Positions 22,907 to 29,167 of a DNA stretch of 64,000 bases are shown here, piece after piece (positions within the stretch are counted from its first letter, which is position 1; each line of letters begins with the position of its first letter). The position numbers were made by a program, and so were the translations under genes. The notes beneath the pieces were generated by a model, which saw only the letters and a program-made list of their open reading frames with translations, made no database searches and was not told the DNA's origin. The DNA comes from Desulfovibrio piger (GTDB lineage Bacteria > Desulfobacterota > Desulfovibrionia > Desulfovibrionales > Desulfovibrionaceae), in the NCBI RefSeq assembly GCF_012843875.1, contig NZ_JABAFY010000001.1:1-64000 (forward strand). Reading direction: 5' to 3'.

Positions 22907-23395
22907 ATGGGACAGGATATTTTCGACGTCATCATCGTGCTGGTCCTGACGGCCTTCGCGGCCCGCGGGTTCTGGACCGGCTTCGTGGGCGAGGTCGCCG
23001 GGCTGATCTCCATCGTGGGCGGCTTCTGGGTCTCCCACCATTTCCACACCGTGCTGGCCCCGCACCTCACCTTCATCACCGAACCGGCCTGGCGCAACAT
23101 CGCCAGCTATGTGCTGCTCTTCCTGGGCGTGCTCATCGCCGTTGGCCTGCTGGCGCGGCTGCTGCAAAAGCTGCTGGCCTTCTCCTTCGTGGGCTGGATC
23201 GACAAGCTCACCGGCGGCCTGCTGGGCCTGGCCAAGGGCGTGCTGCTCTGCGCCGTGGTCCTGCTGCTGTTGCAAAAGCTCTTCGGCGATGCCGAGTTCC
23301 TGCGCCATTCGCGCGCCCTGCCCTACTTCAATTCCCTGATAAGCCAGGTGCGCGGCTGGCTGCCGCCTGACCTCATCAGCCGTTTCGGACTTTAA
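22907..23395 (+). CDS. CvpA-family inner-membrane protein
   Basis: 162 residues with four hydrophobic helices: about 5-22, 27-48, 64-85 and 100-125. The pattern DIFDVIIVLVLTAFAARGFWTGFVGEVAGL at the start and GLLGLAKGVLLC in the last helix is typical of CvpA. Family members are linked to colicin V secretion, purF expression and envelope stress; the biochemical role is unsettled. An AGGAAG SD lies just before the ATG. It is first in a run with mazG, the lipoprotein and the GT39-like gene. Confidence 0.88.
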   Translation: MGQDIFDVIIVLVLTAFAARGFWTGFVGEVAGLISIVGGFWVSHHFHTVLAPHLTFITEPAWRNIASYVLLFLGVLIAVGLLARLLQKLLAFSFVGWIDKLTGGLLGLAKGVLLCAVVLLLLQKLFGDAEFLRHSRALPYFNSLISQVRGWLPPDLISRFGL

Positions 23396-23416: not shown

Positions 23417-24214
23417 ATGAAAAGCGCTCTGGAAGAATTGCAGGCCGTCATCGAACGGCTGACCGATGCCGAGAACGGCTGCCCCTGGGACAAGGAGCAG
23501 ACCCCCGAAAGCCTGACCGAATACCTCATCGAGGAAAGCCACGAGCTGGTCAGCGCCATCCGCTCCGGCAACACGGCCGACGTGTGCGAAGAACTGGGCG
23601 ACGTGGCCTTCCTGCTGCTCTTCGTGGCCCATCTGTACCAGAAGCGCGGCCAGTTCAGCCTGGACGACGCCCTGAACAACAACCGGGCCAAGATGGTGCG
23701 CCGCCATCCTCATGTGTTCGGTGACGTGACCTTCGACAATCTGGACGAGCAGCTCAAGACCTGGGAAAAGATCAAGCGCGCCGAGCACACCGATGCCGAA
23801 GGCAAGCCCCAGGGCCTGTTCGACTCCCTGCCCTCCAGCCTGCCGCCGCTGACCAAGGCCTACCGCATCCACTCCAAGGCCGCCCGCGTGGGCTTCACCT
23901 GGCCCGAGGACGAAGAAGTGGAACAGCAGGTGGAAGCCGAATGGCTGGAATGGCTGGACGCCTCCGCCGGCGACGACGCCGAAGCCCAGAAGCACGAACT
24001 GGGCGACCTGATCTTCAGCATCACCGAGATGGGCCGCCGCAAGGGCATCAAGGCCAGCGAAGCCCTTGACCTGGCCACGGCCCGCTTCCTGCGCCGCTTT
24101 GCCCGCATGGAAGAACTGGCCCGGCAGCAGGGGAAGGACTTCCCCGACCTGTCGCTGGATGAGAAGGACGAGCTGTGGAACGCGGCCAAGGAAGAAGAAA
24201 AGGCCGCCCATTAG
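23417..24214 (+). CDS. mazG: MazG nucleoside triphosphate pyrophosphohydrolase
   Basis: 265 residues with two MazG repeats. The first has NGCPWDKEQT and EESHELVSAI with EELGDVAFLL metal-binding acids (about 15-85). The second has the same helix pattern, with HELGDLIFSI near 195. The enzyme cleaves NTPs and dNTPs to NMP and PPi and can lower damaged nucleotides or ppGpp precursors. An AAGGAA SD precedes the ATG. Its 3' end overlaps the next gene by 40 bases. Confidence 0.95.
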   Translation: MKSALEELQAVIERLTDAENGCPWDKEQTPESLTEYLIEESHELVSAIRSGNTADVCEELGDVAFLLLFVAHLYQKRGQFSLDDALNNNRAKMVRRHPHVFGDVTFDNLDEQLKTWEKIKRAEHTDAEGKPQGLFDSLPSSLPPLTKAYRIHSKAARVGFTWPEDEEVEQQVEAEWLEWLDASAGDDAEAQKHELGDLIFSITEMGRRKGIKASEALDLATARFLRRFARMEELARQQGKDFPDLSLDEKDELWNAAKEEEKAAH

Positions 24215-26289
24215 CGACCTTTGCCCTTTGGCGGCTTTTGGCGGTCGTGCTGGCCCTGCTGCTCTGCGCCTGTTCGCAGGAGGTCATGGGCCCGCACGGC
24301 CGCAAGCCGATGCTCCTGTCCGGGACGGAACGCCCCGACAGGGCCCCCGGCAGCCTGCTGCGCGCCGATCCCGGCTATATCCAGTGGCTGGAACGCCAGT
24401 CCATGCTGGGCAATGCCGACGACCTGGCCGCCGAGGTCTCGGGCTCGGAACGCCTGTGGGGCAACAGCGGCAGCAATGACCGCCTGCCCCTGCTGCTGGA
24501 TGCCGCCCCCTGCTGGCTGGAGGTCAATCCCCACACCCTGCGGGGCAAGGCCACGGCCATGCAGTCCCTGGCCCGCTCCGGCACACTGGAAGCCTTCCGG
24601 CGGATGGGCTTTTCCGGCCTTTACCTGTCCCCGTCCCAGGAACAGGGCGCCCTCTGGCACAACCAGCTCCGCCCCGATTTCGGCACGGGCACCACGTCCC
24701 TGGCCTTCGACGCCCGCAGCGGCGATGACGAACAGTTCGCCCGGCTCAACGCCCGTGCCGCCACCAGCGGCTTCCAGCTGGGCGGCTCCCTGCCCCCGGC
24801 CGCCACAGGCCTGGGCCCGGACTTTTTCCTCCAGGCCCGCCACGCCAGCCGCTTCAGCGGTCTGTACGCCATGATGGAGGCCCCCTCCTCTCTTTGGAGC
24901 ACGCTGCCCGCCTCGCCCCAGGAATGGGAATGCCTCCCCCTCAACGCCCGGCAATGCCGCGCCCTCACCGACAAGGGCCTGCTGCCCCCGGCCCTGCTGC
25001 GCGACAGCCTGCCCTGGGCCACGCCCGGCGGCTGGGCCGTCACCGGCGAAGTGCGCGGGGCCGACGGCAAGCCCCGGCGCTGGCTCTACCGCTATGCGGG
25101 CAACGTGCTGCGCCCCGTGCTGCTCTGGCAGGATCCCTCGGGACAGGCCCGGCGCGTGCTCTCCGCCGCCGTCATCCGCCATACCGGCCTGCAGCAGCAG
25201 ACCCTGGCCGGGCTGCACCTTGAAGCCATCATGGGCCTGGACGTGCCGCCCGACGGCGGAGCGCCCTCCCCCCGTGACCAGCTGGCCCCCGGTCTGGAGG
25301 CCCTGGATGCCCTTGCCCGCGAGATCCACCGCTACGGCGGCTGGGCCATGCAGGCCGACATCCTGCCCCCGTCGCTGACGCCCCTTATCCAGCGGGCCCC
25401 CGTGGACCTGACCCGCGATACCGTCACCAGCCCCGCCGCCGAATATGCCCTGCTCACCGGCGATGCCGCGCCTCTGGCCACATTGCTGCGCCAGTCCATG
25501 AACAGCGGTGTCCGGCAGGAAGGTCTGGCCCGCGGTCTGCACCAGTGGCGGGGCGTGGACTGGCGTCCCCTGCGCGACCTGCCCGGTGGCGAGGCCCTGT
25601 TCCAGCGTGCCTGCCGTCTTGCCGGCCTGCATGACGACGAGTATTTCTGGCCCACCACGCCCGCCGGACTGGCCCGGGAAGCCCTTGGGCGCAAGCCCGA
25701 TGCCGTTCCCGCCCGCGACCGGCGCGACACGGAACTGGAAGAAGCCTGCCTGCTGCTGCTTGCCTGGCGTGTGGGCCTGCCCGGTCTGGCCTTCGTGAGC
25801 CCGCAGGAATTGCAGGGCGCCCTGCCCCTGCCCAAGTCCACGCCGGGCACGGCTGCCAGCGCCGGTCTCGTCCCCCTTCTGGAGCCGGAGACCGCAGCCG
25901 GAGAAGTGGAGCCCGCGCCCCTGGCCTTTGGCCCGCTTTCGGAAGAGCTGCGCCTGCCCCGGAGCCCGGCAAGCATCATGGCGCGGCTGCTGCATGCCCG
26001 CGCCGTCTCCGGTGTGGCCCGGGGCCGGCTTTTGCGCGTGGTCAGCGGCCCTGCCGGGACTCTGGCCACCGTCACCCGTCTGCCTGACGGCAGCTGCTGG
26101 GTGCTGGCCGCCAACTTCGGCAGCGACAGCGCCACCCTTCGCATCCCCCTGCCCGTTTCCGGGGCAGCGCAAGATATCGTTGAACAGACGTCCCTGGCTG
26201 TCCAGGGAGGTCTGACCGTGACCCTGAACGGCCGTTCTGCCCGGCATTATCTGGTCGGAGCCGCCGCATCGCCCAAGGAGCCATCATGA
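24175..26289 (+). CDS. Lipoprotein with a degenerate alpha-amylase-like (GH13-type) barrel
   Basis: 704 residues from a GTG at 24175 with an AAGGA SD; the start lies inside mazG. The N-terminal helix ends in LLCACSQ, a weak lipobox. The middle resembles GH13 trehalose-synthase-like barrels: GTLEAFRRMGFSGLYLSPS (strand 2/helix), FGTGTTSLAFDARSGDDEQF, then TGLGPDFFLQ where an active enzyme would have its DxVxNH region. The usual catalytic Asp and His of that region are absent, suggesting a binding or structural role. The last about 90 residues look like the beta-sandwich domain of such enzymes. It overlaps the next gene by four bases (ATGA). Confidence 0.65.
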   Translation: MERGQGRRKGRPLATFALWRLLAVVLALLLCACSQEVMGPHGRKPMLLSGTERPDRAPGSLLRADPGYIQWLERQSMLGNADDLAAEVSGSERLWGNSGSNDRLPLLLDAAPCWLEVNPHTLRGKATAMQSLARSGTLEAFRRMGFSGLYLSPSQEQGALWHNQLRPDFGTGTTSLAFDARSGDDEQFARLNARAATSGFQLGGSLPPAATGLGPDFFLQARHASRFSGLYAMMEAPSSLWSTLPASPQEWECLPLNARQCRALTDKGLLPPALLRDSLPWATPGGWAVTGEVRGADGKPRRWLYRYAGNVLRPVLLWQDPSGQARRVLSAAVIRHTGLQQQTLAGLHLEAIMGLDVPPDGGAPSPRDQLAPGLEALDALAREIHRYGGWAMQADILPPSLTPLIQRAPVDLTRDTVTSPAAEYALLTGDAAPLATLLRQSMNSGVRQEGLARGLHQWRGVDWRPLRDLPGGEALFQRACRLAGLHDDEYFWPTTPAGLAREALGRKPDAVPARDRRDTELEEACLLLLAWRVGLPGLAFVSPQELQGALPLPKSTPGTAASAGLVPLLEPETAAGEVEPAPLAFGPLSEELRLPRSPASIMARLLHARAVSGVARGRLLRVVSGPAGTLATVTRLPDGSCWVLAANFGSDSATLRIPLPVSGAAQDIVEQTSLAVQGGLTVTLNGRSARHYLVGAAASPKEPS

Positions 26290-28682
26290 CAGAAAAAAAT
26301 CCCGATGCCGCCAGCAAGCTGGCCTGCCCTGAAGAGGAGATCCCCATGGGCATGACGCCCTGGTCCCAGCTGGATGAAGAGGCCCGGGCCCGGGTAAGCC
26401 GCCCCACCCCTGCCGACGGCCAGAAGAGCCCGGCCCCCGGCACAGCGTCTGTGGCCCCGGAACCGGCGCCCGCCCCGCAGCAAGAGTCCCCTATCCCCAT
26501 GCCCGCCGCAGAGGCCGTGCAGGCTGAGGACGCCCCGGCCGCTCCCGCCGCGCCCGTTGCCGCGCCGGTGGAAAGCCCTGCCGCGGACCAGACGCCCGAA
26601 GCGCCCCTGAGCATGGAAGCCGGGGAAGCGCCTGCGGCCCCTGCCGAGGCTGCACGGCCCGTACCCGCGACCGAGCCTGCCGTCACCGCCGAAGAAAAGG
26701 CCGACGGCAGCGAAGCCCCTGCGGAGGACGTCGCTGCCGATGCCGCCATGGCCGAAGCGCCCCGCAGCGGACGTCGCGGTCTGGCCACCATGCAGCCCGC
26801 TGCGATGGATGAACAGATCCCGGCAGCCGAAGCAGCTCCCCTGCCGGAAGAAGGCCAGGCGCCCGCCCCGCAGGCAGAAGCCCCGGCCGCTCCCGCCGCG
26901 CCGGTGGCCGTGCTGGAAGCCGGGCCTGCCCAGAAGGCCTTTGCCGTACTGGCCAAGATGGGCCCCCTGGCCCTGCTCCTGCTCCTGGCCTGCCAGCTCT
27001 GGCCCACCTTCCTGACCGGCGGTCTGTACTGCCCGCCGGAAATGAAACTGATGGATACCGTCCGAGAAGCGCTGGCCAGTGGACAGTGGTTCGCGCCCCT
27101 GCATAACGGTGATGCCCAGCTGCCCGTCTTCGTCTGGATGCTGGCCGCCCTCGACCTGGTGGCCCGCATGGTGCCGCAGCTTTCGGCCTTCGTCTGGCCG
27201 GCGGGCGCCGCTCTGGGCGGGCTGGCTTGTCTGTGGGGCACCTGGGCCCTGAGCCGTGCCGCCGGTTTCGGCCCGCAGGCCGCCCTGGCCTCCGGCCTGA
27301 TCCTGCTCTCCAGCCTGCTGTTCCCGCAGCTGGCGCATTTCATGGGCCCGCAGGGGCTGGCCACCGGTCTGTGCCTGCTCTCCATGGCCTTTTTCTGCAT
27401 GGGCTGGAAAAAGGAACACGCCTGGATCTCCCTGCCGCTGGCCTTCCTGACCTCCGGTCTGGCCGCGCTGACCGGCGGCCTGGTCTTCCTGATCCTGCCC
27501 CTGCTGACCAGCCTCGTCCACCTGTTCTGGACCTGGCGCATCCGTCGCGCCCAGCGCTTGGACGCGCTGGCGGGCTTCCTCCTGCTCCTGCTGCTGGGTA
27601 CCCTCTGGGCCGCCGCCATCATCTTCTGGGTGCAGGCCGAAGGCTACGCCCAGGCCGTGTCGGGCAAGTTCATCAGCCTGCCCTGGCCCCTGCCCGCCTT
27701 CTGGTGGCTGGCCCCGGCGCTGGCCGTGCTCGGCCTCCTGCCCTGGCTCTTCGTGGTCACCGGCGTCAACTGGGGCCGCGTGTTCGCCACCAGCTGGAAG
27801 ACCCTGCGAGCCAGCCGCAAAGAAAACAGCGGCAGCTCCTTCCTCTGGATCGCCCTGTTCTTCTCCCTGCCCTTGTCCCTGCTGGGTTCCGGCCTTGCCG
27901 GTGCCACGCCCGCGCTCTGCCTGCTGGCCATCCTGCTGGGCCGCGCCCTGGTCCGCATGGGCAGCCTGGGCAGCAAGTTCTTCTATCTGGTCATCGCCCT
28001 GCTCTTCCTGCATGCGGGCATGCTGCTGGCCGCCCTGCACTTCCCCGTGGCGCTGGAATGGCTCCGCACGTCCACCTCGCTGGCCATCCCCCAGCAGTAT
28101 GAGGCCCTGCTGACCAGTCTGGATGCCCTGCCCGTCCTGGGCGGCCTGTGCATCGTCTTTGCCGTGCTGCTGGCCCGCTTCACCCGCCGCGCCTGGCCCG
28201 GCGGCTCCCTGCTGGTCTGCACCCTGTTCGCCATCCTCCTGGCCCAGCCTGCCCACCTGTGGCTGGCTCCCCAGCTGGCCGGACATGCCGAGCTCAAGCT
28301 CGCCGCCGCCCAGCCCCTGAACGCCGCTGCCCCTGCCGCTCCGGCCGCTGTTAAGGAAAGCACGGCTCCTGCGGCCCCCGAAGCTGCTGCCGAAACGGCC
28401 GCACCGGAAACGCCCGCTGCTGAAGCCGCCCAGGCCCCTGAGGCCGCTGCTCCGGCTGAAGCCGCCCAGGCCCCGGAAACGCCGGAAGCCACCGCTCCTG
28501 CGGAAACGCAGGCTGCCCCGGCCGAGGAGGCTGCGGCCCCCGCTCCCGCGGAAGGTACGCCCGCGCCTGCGGAAAACGCGCAGCCTGCCGAACCCGTGCA
28601 GGAGGCGCCCGCCGTGCAGACCCTGCCCGCGGGCCCCGAACACGGCACGCCCATCCCGCCGGAAGCCGTTCCGGTCCAGTAA
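26286..28682 (+). CDS. ArnT/GT39-like membrane glycosyltransferase with Ala/Pro-rich arms
   Basis: 798 residues. The first about 215 residues are a low-complexity Ala/Pro/Glu region; then about 12 hydrophobic helices (about 218-680); then another Ala/Pro/Glu tail of about 120 residues. Just after the first helix, LYCPPEMKLMDTVREALASGQWFAPLHNGD aligns by pattern with the first periplasmic loop of ArnT/PMT enzymes, where an acidic DE-type catalytic pair is expected; here it is PE. Such enzymes move a sugar from a polyprenyl carrier to lipid A or protein. It is coupled to the amylase-like lipoprotein (ATGA overlap). The acceptor is unknown. Confidence 0.75.
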   Translation: MTEKNPDAASKLACPEEEIPMGMTPWSQLDEEARARVSRPTPADGQKSPAPGTASVAPEPAPAPQQESPIPMPAAEAVQAEDAPAAPAAPVAAPVESPAADQTPEAPLSMEAGEAPAAPAEAARPVPATEPAVTAEEKADGSEAPAEDVAADAAMAEAPRSGRRGLATMQPAAMDEQIPAAEAAPLPEEGQAPAPQAEAPAAPAAPVAVLEAGPAQKAFAVLAKMGPLALLLLLACQLWPTFLTGGLYCPPEMKLMDTVREALASGQWFAPLHNGDAQLPVFVWMLAALDLVARMVPQLSAFVWPAGAALGGLACLWGTWALSRAAGFGPQAALASGLILLSSLLFPQLAHFMGPQGLATGLCLLSMAFFCMGWKKEHAWISLPLAFLTSGLAALTGGLVFLILPLLTSLVHLFWTWRIRRAQRLDALAGFLLLLLLGTLWAAAIIFWVQAEGYAQAVSGKFISLPWPLPAFWWLAPALAVLGLLPWLFVVTGVNWGRVFATSWKTLRASRKENSGSSFLWIALFFSLPLSLLGSGLAGATPALCLLAILLGRALVRMGSLGSKFFYLVIALLFLHAGMLLAALHFPVALEWLRTSTSLAIPQQYEALLTSLDALPVLGGLCIVFAVLLARFTRRAWPGGSLLVCTLFAILLAQPAHLWLAPQLAGHAELKLAAAQPLNAAAPAAPAAVKESTAPAAPEAAAETAAPETPAAEAAQAPEAAAPAEAAQAPETPEATAPAETQAAPAEEAAAPAPAEGTPAPAENAQPAEPVQEAPAVQTLPAGPEHGTPIPPEAVPVQ

Positions 28683-29167
28683 GCGCCCGTCCATAGACCA
28701 AAAACAAGGGGAGAGCCTGCCAAGGCCCTCCCCTTTTGCGTTTCCTGTTTCCTTGCCCAGCGGGAACTCCACCCGCCAGCTTCGACAAAGACTCCCGCAC
28801 CTGTCTGCTGTCGGGCTGCCTGCCGCCCCACATTTCGGACAGCGGGACTGTGACAGCATCTCTTTATCCCTGCCGGACGACGTATCCGCAAACATACGGA
28901 AAGGATGCCGCCCGAGATGGCGGATCTCCCCTAAGCGACACGACACCACACCAACAAATGCGAACGTACCGGACCTGTCTCCATATCGTACTGTAAAGCA
29001 GGGAGGCCACCAGTCCCGCCCTCTGTTTGGGCGACAGCTCTTCTTCGTTTGGCGCTTCCGTCCGTCGCCGCCGCTAAGGCTCTGAAGGCCTTGCCGTGCG
29101 AGAAAAGGACGCTCCACATCCGCCTGCCAGCAGGGAGGATGCAAACGGAACAAAGCCAAACGGCATG
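28683..29167. other. Intergenic region between convergent units
   Basis: About 480 bases with no supported gene. It starts with the terminator at 28706. On the minus strand, 28740-28859 can encode a zinc-ribbon-like CPKCGAAGSPTADRCGSLC segment with no closing stop nearby, probably a remnant or chance. Confidence 0.4.
28706..28735 (+). terminator. Terminator after the ArnT-like gene
   Basis: 8-bp outer stem (AAGGGGAG with CTCCCCTT) plus a 4-bp inner stem after a mismatch, ending TTTT. Confidence 0.8.

Follow-up and report, generated by a model that had tools for sequence, protein, structure and literature searches.

A lipoprotein gene that runs into a gene for an ArnT-like membrane protein raises a simple question: do the two proteins still act on sugars, or have they taken on another job together? 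We addressed this for a 64,000-nucleotide window of DNA from Desulfovibrio piger, a sulfate reducer of the gut (contig NZ_JABAFY010000001.1), in which four genes stand in a row on the forward strand: cvpA, mazG, the lipoprotein gene and the ArnT-like gene. We coined the name treL for the lipoprotein gene (24175..26289, GTG start, 704 amino acids) and arnL for its neighbor (26286..28682, ATG start, 798 amino acids). A first-pass annotation of this DNA had placed both open reading frames (ORFs) at these positions, joined by an ATGA overlap, and both read as it described; it proposed that they form an envelope-glycan system. Our analysis shows that ArnL has the fold of ArnT in its structural model and that, on sequence alignments, TreL lacks all three catalytic residues of its enzyme relatives. 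As read from sequence, the TreL-ArnL pair is a new form of known families, and its evolution can be read as a series of steps. The explanation we favor, with confidence no better than evenly balanced, is that two sugar enzymes were repurposed as TreL and ArnL, which are inherited together and probably interact in the envelope.

Folds and catalytic residues of ArnL and TreL

Single-sequence searches gave no Pfam or NCBIfam family for the window ArnL and no Protein Data Bank (PDB) relative for the window TreL, so family profiles were needed. A profile built from 47 ArnL-family cores matched only one kind of PDB entry, ArnT (5ezm/5f15, E 7.8e-7). The model of the ArnL core (predicted local distance difference test score, pLDDT, 88.9) matches 5f15 with a Z score of 29.1 over 423 aligned residues and a root-mean-square deviation of 3.6 (Foldseek E 5.9e-10), and the next-best family, oligosaccharyltransferase, reaches a Z of 22.6. 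The model establishes an ArnT (GT-C) fold for ArnL. The first-pass label "ArnT/GT39-like" is therefore apt in its first half; its second half is loose, since PMT_2 was matched by 12 of the 47 single members (best 3.1e-8) and the window protein was not one of them.

Passages of PMC7801869 place D55 and E56 of ArnT in the active site and give K85 a role in phosphate binding and D158 one in acceptor binding. We examined these positions in an alignment, A4, of the window ArnL and 46 further loci. No member (0/47) has the catalytic Asp that stands in the first periplasmic loop of ArnT (D55 in 5ezm). The window protein reads CPPE (residues 249-252, 27030..27041, + strand) in place of the D55-E56 pair, and so the PE that the first-pass annotation noticed instead of a DE-type pair reflects a family-wide loss of the Asp. 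The lipid-phosphate-binding Lys is likewise absent from every member (0/47), and the acceptor-site Asp is present in a single one, not the window's. The residue after the lost Asp, Glu252 in the window ArnL, is Glu in 46 members and Asp in the other, and P280 and D426 are invariant (47/47).

ArnL also carries the long Ala/Pro arms that had been noted on both sides of its membrane core. The N-terminal Ala/Pro/Glu-rich arm (26286..26942, + strand) has 29% Ala and 18% Pro over residues 1-215, and the C-terminal one (28287..28679, + strand) has 38% and 20% over residues 668-798, against 15% and 6% in the core. The charges of the loops follow a positive-inside pattern that fits a topology with the N-terminus in and the C-terminus out, which predicts a cytoplasmic N-arm and a periplasmic C-arm.

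TreL had been described as a lipoprotein. Its lipobox reads LLLCAC, and the lipobox Cys33 (codon 24271..24273, + strand) is kept in 51/51 rows that cover the region, a count that leaves out L094, in which the region is missing; the Cys is also invariant in the 18 rows of alignment A1. The first-pass annotation missed that TreL is related to trehalose synthases. The TIGR02455 model (TreS_stutzeri) matches the window treL with E 5.3e-38 and 130.7 bits, below the curated equivalog cut-off of 719.4. An AlphaFold2 (AF2) model from 48 family members (pLDDT 88.5, predicted template modeling score 0.90) contains a GH13-type (beta/alpha)8 barrel. Trehalose synthases are its top Foldseek matches (5x7u, E 1.2e-18, template modeling scores 0.60/0.73), and it aligns with the trehalose synthase 8z2u with a Z of 31.1 over 497 residues. 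The treL alignment A3 omits L094, L106, L108, L113, L120, L125 and L129, which are fragments or have a long insert; A3 and A4 come from the 54-locus scan described below, and A1 and A2 came from an earlier set of loci and were not used for folding.

Passages of PMC8537225 state that catalysis in GH13 enzymes relies on an Asp as nucleophile, a Glu as proton donor and a second Asp as stabilizer. We aligned 52 TreL rows with three plasmid TreS-type proteins, L130-L132, of which only L130 is annotated (treS) and L132 reads short. The TreS motifs GLRLD, FQELN and QNHDE, which we take from general knowledge of GH13 to hold the nucleophile, the acid/base and the stabilizer, are all replaced in the TreL family. 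GLHLE (residues 346-350, 25210..25224, + strand) stands in place of the nucleophile motif, and residue 350 is E in 37 rows, K in 6, A in 4, S in 2 and G, T or R in one each, never Asp. The alignment here is ambiguous by two residues, and the other register, with Asp at residue 348 in 2/52 rows, gives no conserved Asp either. Ala394 (25354..25356, + strand) takes the place of the acid/base Glu, which is found in 0/52 rows, and residue 459, in place of the stabilizer, is Asp in 1/52. Part of a TreS loop is retained as TGLGPDF (residues 211-217, 24805..24825, + strand), in which T, G, G, P, D and F are each present in 52/52; the loop residues before it are lost (first D 0/52, H 1/52). By these alignments, TreL is without any of the three GH13 catalytic residues.

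Conservation and selection in Desulfovibrio

We scanned one genome per species (84,980 species) and obtained 54 named loci, all of them by title from Desulfovibrio or Desulfovibrionaceae except L079, listed as a Deltaproteobacteria bacterium. treL is followed by arnL in 46 of them. Seven loci without arnL (L106, L108, L109, L113, L121, L125 and L129) have contigs that end within about 500 bases after treL. mazG and cvpA precede treL in 53/54 loci, and treL and arnL are retained in nearly all genomes of the genus that we searched. An order-wide search found treL in 88/247 genomes, all in Desulfovibrionaceae (G448 gave a short match only). The first-pass annotation had named a lack of conserved pairing in related genomes as grounds for abandoning its proposal; the pairing is in fact well conserved.

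Both genes are also constrained. Ratios of nonsynonymous to synonymous divergence (dN/dS) were 0.06-0.30 for the arnL core (14 species pairs) and 0.11-0.34 for treL (12 usable pairs), compared with 0.05-0.23 for mazG as a control (11 usable pairs). The treL and mazG values are for stop-to-stop frames, and pairs with dS >1 are saturated. We left out mazG of L089/L094 and dropped the mazG and treL values of two L104 pairs as artefacts (identity 0.74-0.90 with dN 0.6-1.1, probably from runs of N that shift codons). TreL and ArnL are both maintained by purifying selection, treL more loosely. A gene order conserved throughout the genus, together with such selection on both proteins, shows that the treL-arnL arrangement is not a chance one.

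The window treL is 97% identical to that of D. piger ATCC 29098 (locus L076). Some other copies of the gene deserve mention. In L120 (5279-8491), treL has an insert of about 300 residues after the GLD motif, which is of low complexity, partly repeated and rich in Ser, Lys and Glu. The treL copies of L109 and L118 come from contigs that share an accession series (JAFTDR, one isolate) and may represent a duplication or a mixed assembly.

Homologues in other genera and the gene neighborhood

The ancestors of a pseudoenzyme pair have usually disappeared, which makes its history difficult to follow. We ran the two profiles against 149 genomes of the family, retrieved 40 regions that belong to other genera and aligned 32 ArnT homologues. 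Homologues of arnL occur in 112/149 genomes (33/44 genera) and treL in 63/149 (17/44 genera). D55, E56, K85 and D158 are all kept in 26/32 of the other-genus homologues; counted singly, D55 is present in 27, K85 in 26 and D158 in 29, and in L146 the Lys motif is located in an insertion. D55 is missing from L133, L147, L152, L170 and L172. In a FastTree tree with a midpoint root, Desulfovibrio groups with L133 and L152, the homologues with the D-E pair and L147 make up another part, and L170 pairs with L172.

Several of these loci hold treL beside an ArnT at a different stage. In L148, an ArnT with all residues adjoins treL, and in L134 such an ArnT lies one gene away. The ArnT that adjoins treL in L147 has Glu for Asp and no Lys. 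L133, from another genus, has the full cvpA-mazG-treL-arnL order and a degenerate ArnT. On the TreL side, the GH13 triad is lost in 15/16 other-genus rows. The exception, L169 (401-2587, genome G358), is a lipoprotein TreS that scores 698 bits against TIGR02455 and keeps the RLDAN nucleophile motif and QNHDE, with Tyr for the acid/base Glu. Judging by its motifs, it is a possible first step in the conversion of TreS. A lipobox-like Cys is lacking only in L139 among the 16 (L145 was judged by eye). With intact, partial and degenerate forms seen in L133, L134, L147, L148 and L169, the losses in both proteins can be observed in stages. Because ArnT homologues from intact through partly to fully degenerate are found within a single bacterial family, alongside one TreS lipoprotein that is near-intact and many that are degenerate, the course of the conversion can be traced and put to the test. 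The same series is a caution against the labels ArnT and TreS for genes of this kind.

The genes around the intact homologues are distinctive. In 23/27 other-genus loci with the D-E pair, the ArnT gene has a PAP2 phosphatase gene (PF01569) next to it or touching it, and a Maf/MptE-like gene lies in the fetched stretch of 15/27; neither occurs in any of the 5 other-genus loci that lost D55. Among the 6,705 ORFs of the 54 named loci and the window stretch, there were no matches to these PAP2, Maf-like or MATE proteins. In the window genome as a whole, neither PAP2, MptE-like and PMT_2 proteins nor the ArnT equivalog model found a match. PAP2 is found somewhere in 20/61 genomes of the genus, so what lacks it is the locus and the window genome rather than the genus. 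The Desulfovibrio locus is without the setting of the intact ArnT homologues, yet both degenerate proteins are kept.

Separately, L153-L171, L134-L138, L142, L144 and L146 share a conserved Maf/MptE-like - PAP2 - ArnT-like module across Desulfovibrionaceae genera, which from its gene content looks like an uncharacterized lipid-linked-sugar system.

The first-pass link between the pair and a cvpA-mazG unit holds within Desulfovibrio and in L133 but does not extend to the rest of the family, as neither gene was found in the other-genus loci apart from L133. In the window, cvpA (CvpA/colicin V production family, 22910..23395, + strand, Pfam Colicin_V E 4.4e-33) is the first gene of the conserved unit. 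mazG (nucleoside triphosphate pyrophosphohydrolase, 23417..24214, + strand) scores 286 bits against NCBIfam PRK09562, for which the cut-off is 208. The 3' end of mazG overlaps treL by 40 bases, provided that treL starts at GTG 24175. GAGAAGGA stands upstream of this GTG, which is the likely start; later in-frame starts exist, so it is not proven. At the other end of treL, AAGGAG (26275..26280, + strand), which resembles a ribosome-binding site, lies within the gene 5 bases 5' of the arnL ATG. The ATGA in which the arnL start overlies the treL stop (26286..26289, + strand) is common but not universal, being shared by 14/47 treL-arnL pairs including the window's. A GC-rich, terminator-like hairpin (28706..28735, listed on the - strand) follows arnL on the 3' side and is a weak call, with 6 such sites in the region and 3.4 expected in shuffles.

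A proposed repurposing of the pair, and its alternatives

Because both proteins are without the residues needed for their ancestors' chemistry, a new and probably non-enzymatic job in the envelope is suggested. TreL would be lipid-anchored in the envelope, where its barrel may dock on the periplasmic face of ArnL, much as the dead GH13 ectodomain of 4F2hc sits on its transporter, and would serve as a docking or glycan-binding partner. ArnL would no longer transfer sugar in the manner of ArnT and may instead be a membrane scaffold or a binder of lipid-linked glycans, with its arms extending into the cytoplasm and the periplasm. The linkage to cvpA would put the pair in envelope maintenance. We consider such a non-catalytic pair the most economical mechanism. 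The envelope-glycan system proposed earlier survives here in part: ancestry in two glycan-acting families and the conserved pairing fit it, but sugar transfer is not supported, given an ArnL without three key residues, a TreL without the GH13 triad and a window genome that matched neither PAP2, MptE-like or PMT_2 families nor the ArnT equivalog.

A more specific version can be put forward tentatively, as one that we consider possible and somewhat less probable than its negation. It holds that the pair is a bacterial complex of two pseudoenzymes, in which an ArnT that is dead as an enzyme has an equally dead trehalose-synthase lipoprotein for its heavy chain and a sugar-transfer module has become a non-catalytic receptor, scaffold or carrier of lipid-glycans. 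The steps of conversion would then be readable in one family, from an intact ArnT with PAP2, through an intact ArnT by TreL and an Asp-to-Glu ArnT by TreL, to the degenerate pair under cvpA-mazG.

Several observations weigh against a repurposed, interacting pair. In E. coli, lipoproteins without Asp at position +2 are sorted to the outer membrane. Asp follows the TreL lipobox Cys at +2 in 0/51 rows; by the E. coli rule TreL would be in the outer membrane, and contact with ArnL would need a bridge formed by the C-arm or a different sorting rule. The near-invariant Glu after the lost Asp in ArnL may reflect residual binding of a ligand or metal, or altered catalysis. L099 (Hs463_bin8) has treL and lacks arnL despite about 9 kb read downstream. 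treL and arnL are unlinked in several genera. The catalytic Asp is also gone from L170 and L172, whose genomes have no treL, so its loss does not occur only alongside treL. The correlated divergence of the two genes (partial r 0.456, a value reached by 0/2000 label permutations) was dropped as support, since treL and mazG co-diverge more strongly (0.536) and the signal is non-specific. A TreL profile matched 4F2hc below significance (E 0.046-0.097 over 41 residues), and we use that protein as an analogy only.

The arms give a similarly limited indication. Other-genus ArnT homologues have N-arms of 59-296 residues in the 13 loci with treL, even where the genes are unlinked, and of 0-85 residues in 18/19 loci without it; genus medians for the whole ORF are 839 and 602 residues, respectively. 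This association, for which 105 of the 112 arnL-positive genomes were entered (contig-edge fragments and a weak G422 match were left out, and G448 was not counted as treL-positive), is suggestive only, because the 19 treL-less tips form just two clades of the arnL tree and thus few independent events. The exception among the treL-less loci is L160, whose arm measures 217 residues because PAP2 and arnL share one frame.

On their own account, two of these loci merit comment. L160 (2510-4837) has PAP2 and ArnT-like parts that share an open frame and may be a natural fusion, and L099 probably corresponds to L048 in the 1.4 Mb genome G009.

The best-surviving alternative keeps ArnL as a glycosyltransferase for lipid-linked sugars whose chemistry has changed, with Glu252 standing in for the lost Asp and TreL binding or positioning the acceptor. 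The strict retention of Glu252 (or Asp), Pro280 and Asp426 and the complete ArnT fold of the model would fit such an enzyme. TreL can also coexist with an intact transferase, because L148 and L134 have both. We nevertheless judge it unlikely. The Asp, the Lys and the acceptor Asp were lost together, and the PAP2 neighbor is gone, with none in the window genome even though other genomes of the genus have one. In addition, passages of PMC7801869 report the first Asp in all transferases found there, and that changes to D77/E78, the equivalent pair of the yeast enzyme, abolish function.

Two further explanations appear very improbable. TreL could be active on alpha-glucans or trehalose by means of acidic residues that have been rebuilt, served by ArnL as an accessory membrane protein, and D356 (48 D and 4 E of 52), D395 (40 D and 7 E) and D411 (52/52) are indeed conserved, but D411 and the TGxGPDF loop are common to true TreS and need not be catalytic, and the three catalytic positions as aligned hold many different, mostly unsuited residues; a triad displaced in the fold is conceivable. 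Equally improbable is that treL and arnL are decaying remnants of an old sugar module carried by cvpA-mazG, as the lost catalytic residues, the short treL frames of L125 and L129 (both near contig ends) and the arnL-less L099 might suggest, given dN/dS well below 1 for both genes, an invariant lipobox and fold residues, and retention of the pair throughout nearly all of the genus.

The open-licence literature gave nothing on a Desulfovibrio trehalose synthase together with a lipoprotein and a glycosyltransferase (a subscription paper could exist), and no GT-C pseudoenzyme or GH13 pseudoenzyme lipoprotein was found in it. For Desulfovibrio and aminoarabinose, it returned only a paper that by its title concerns Pseudomonas. 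"ARNT" in the Desulfovibrio literature was, in the passages checked, the "Per-ARNT-Sim" of PAS domains and not ArnT.

Known systems resemble the two proteins in part. ArnL is like ArnT, the GT-C lipid A aminoarabinose transferase, in fold, in profile match and in the Glu kept after the lost Asp; it differs in lacking equivalents of the catalytic Asp, Lys85 and D158, in its long Ala/Pro arms, in having no PAP2 neighbor and in its coupling to a GH13 lipoprotein. A more distant match is PIGU, a subunit of the GPI transamidase described in passages of PMC12041525 as a protein that has a GT-C-like fold although it is not a member of the GT-C family, and in passages of PMC7125958 as essential for the transamidase with a role that was unknown in 2020. 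The ArnL model aligns with it (7w72_U) at a Z of 16.6, a likeness of fold only, and PIGU belongs to a eukaryotic multi-subunit complex. TreL shares its fold, its relatedness and the TGxGPDF loop with the P. stutzeri-type TreS (TIGR02455), which has a near-intact lipoprotein member, L169, in the same bacterial family; unlike that enzyme, TreL is a lipoprotein, has lost nucleophile, acid/base and stabilizer, and scores 131 bits where the cut-off is 719. A parallel to the pair as a whole is offered by 4F2hc, the heavy subunit of human heteromeric amino acid transporters, which passages of PMC8537225 present as a GH13 domain without an active site that is membrane-anchored, lies outside the cytoplasm and partners a many-helix membrane protein. 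4F2hc has a helix anchor, a disulfide and an SLC7 partner, whereas TreL has a predicted lipid anchor and a putative GT-C partner.

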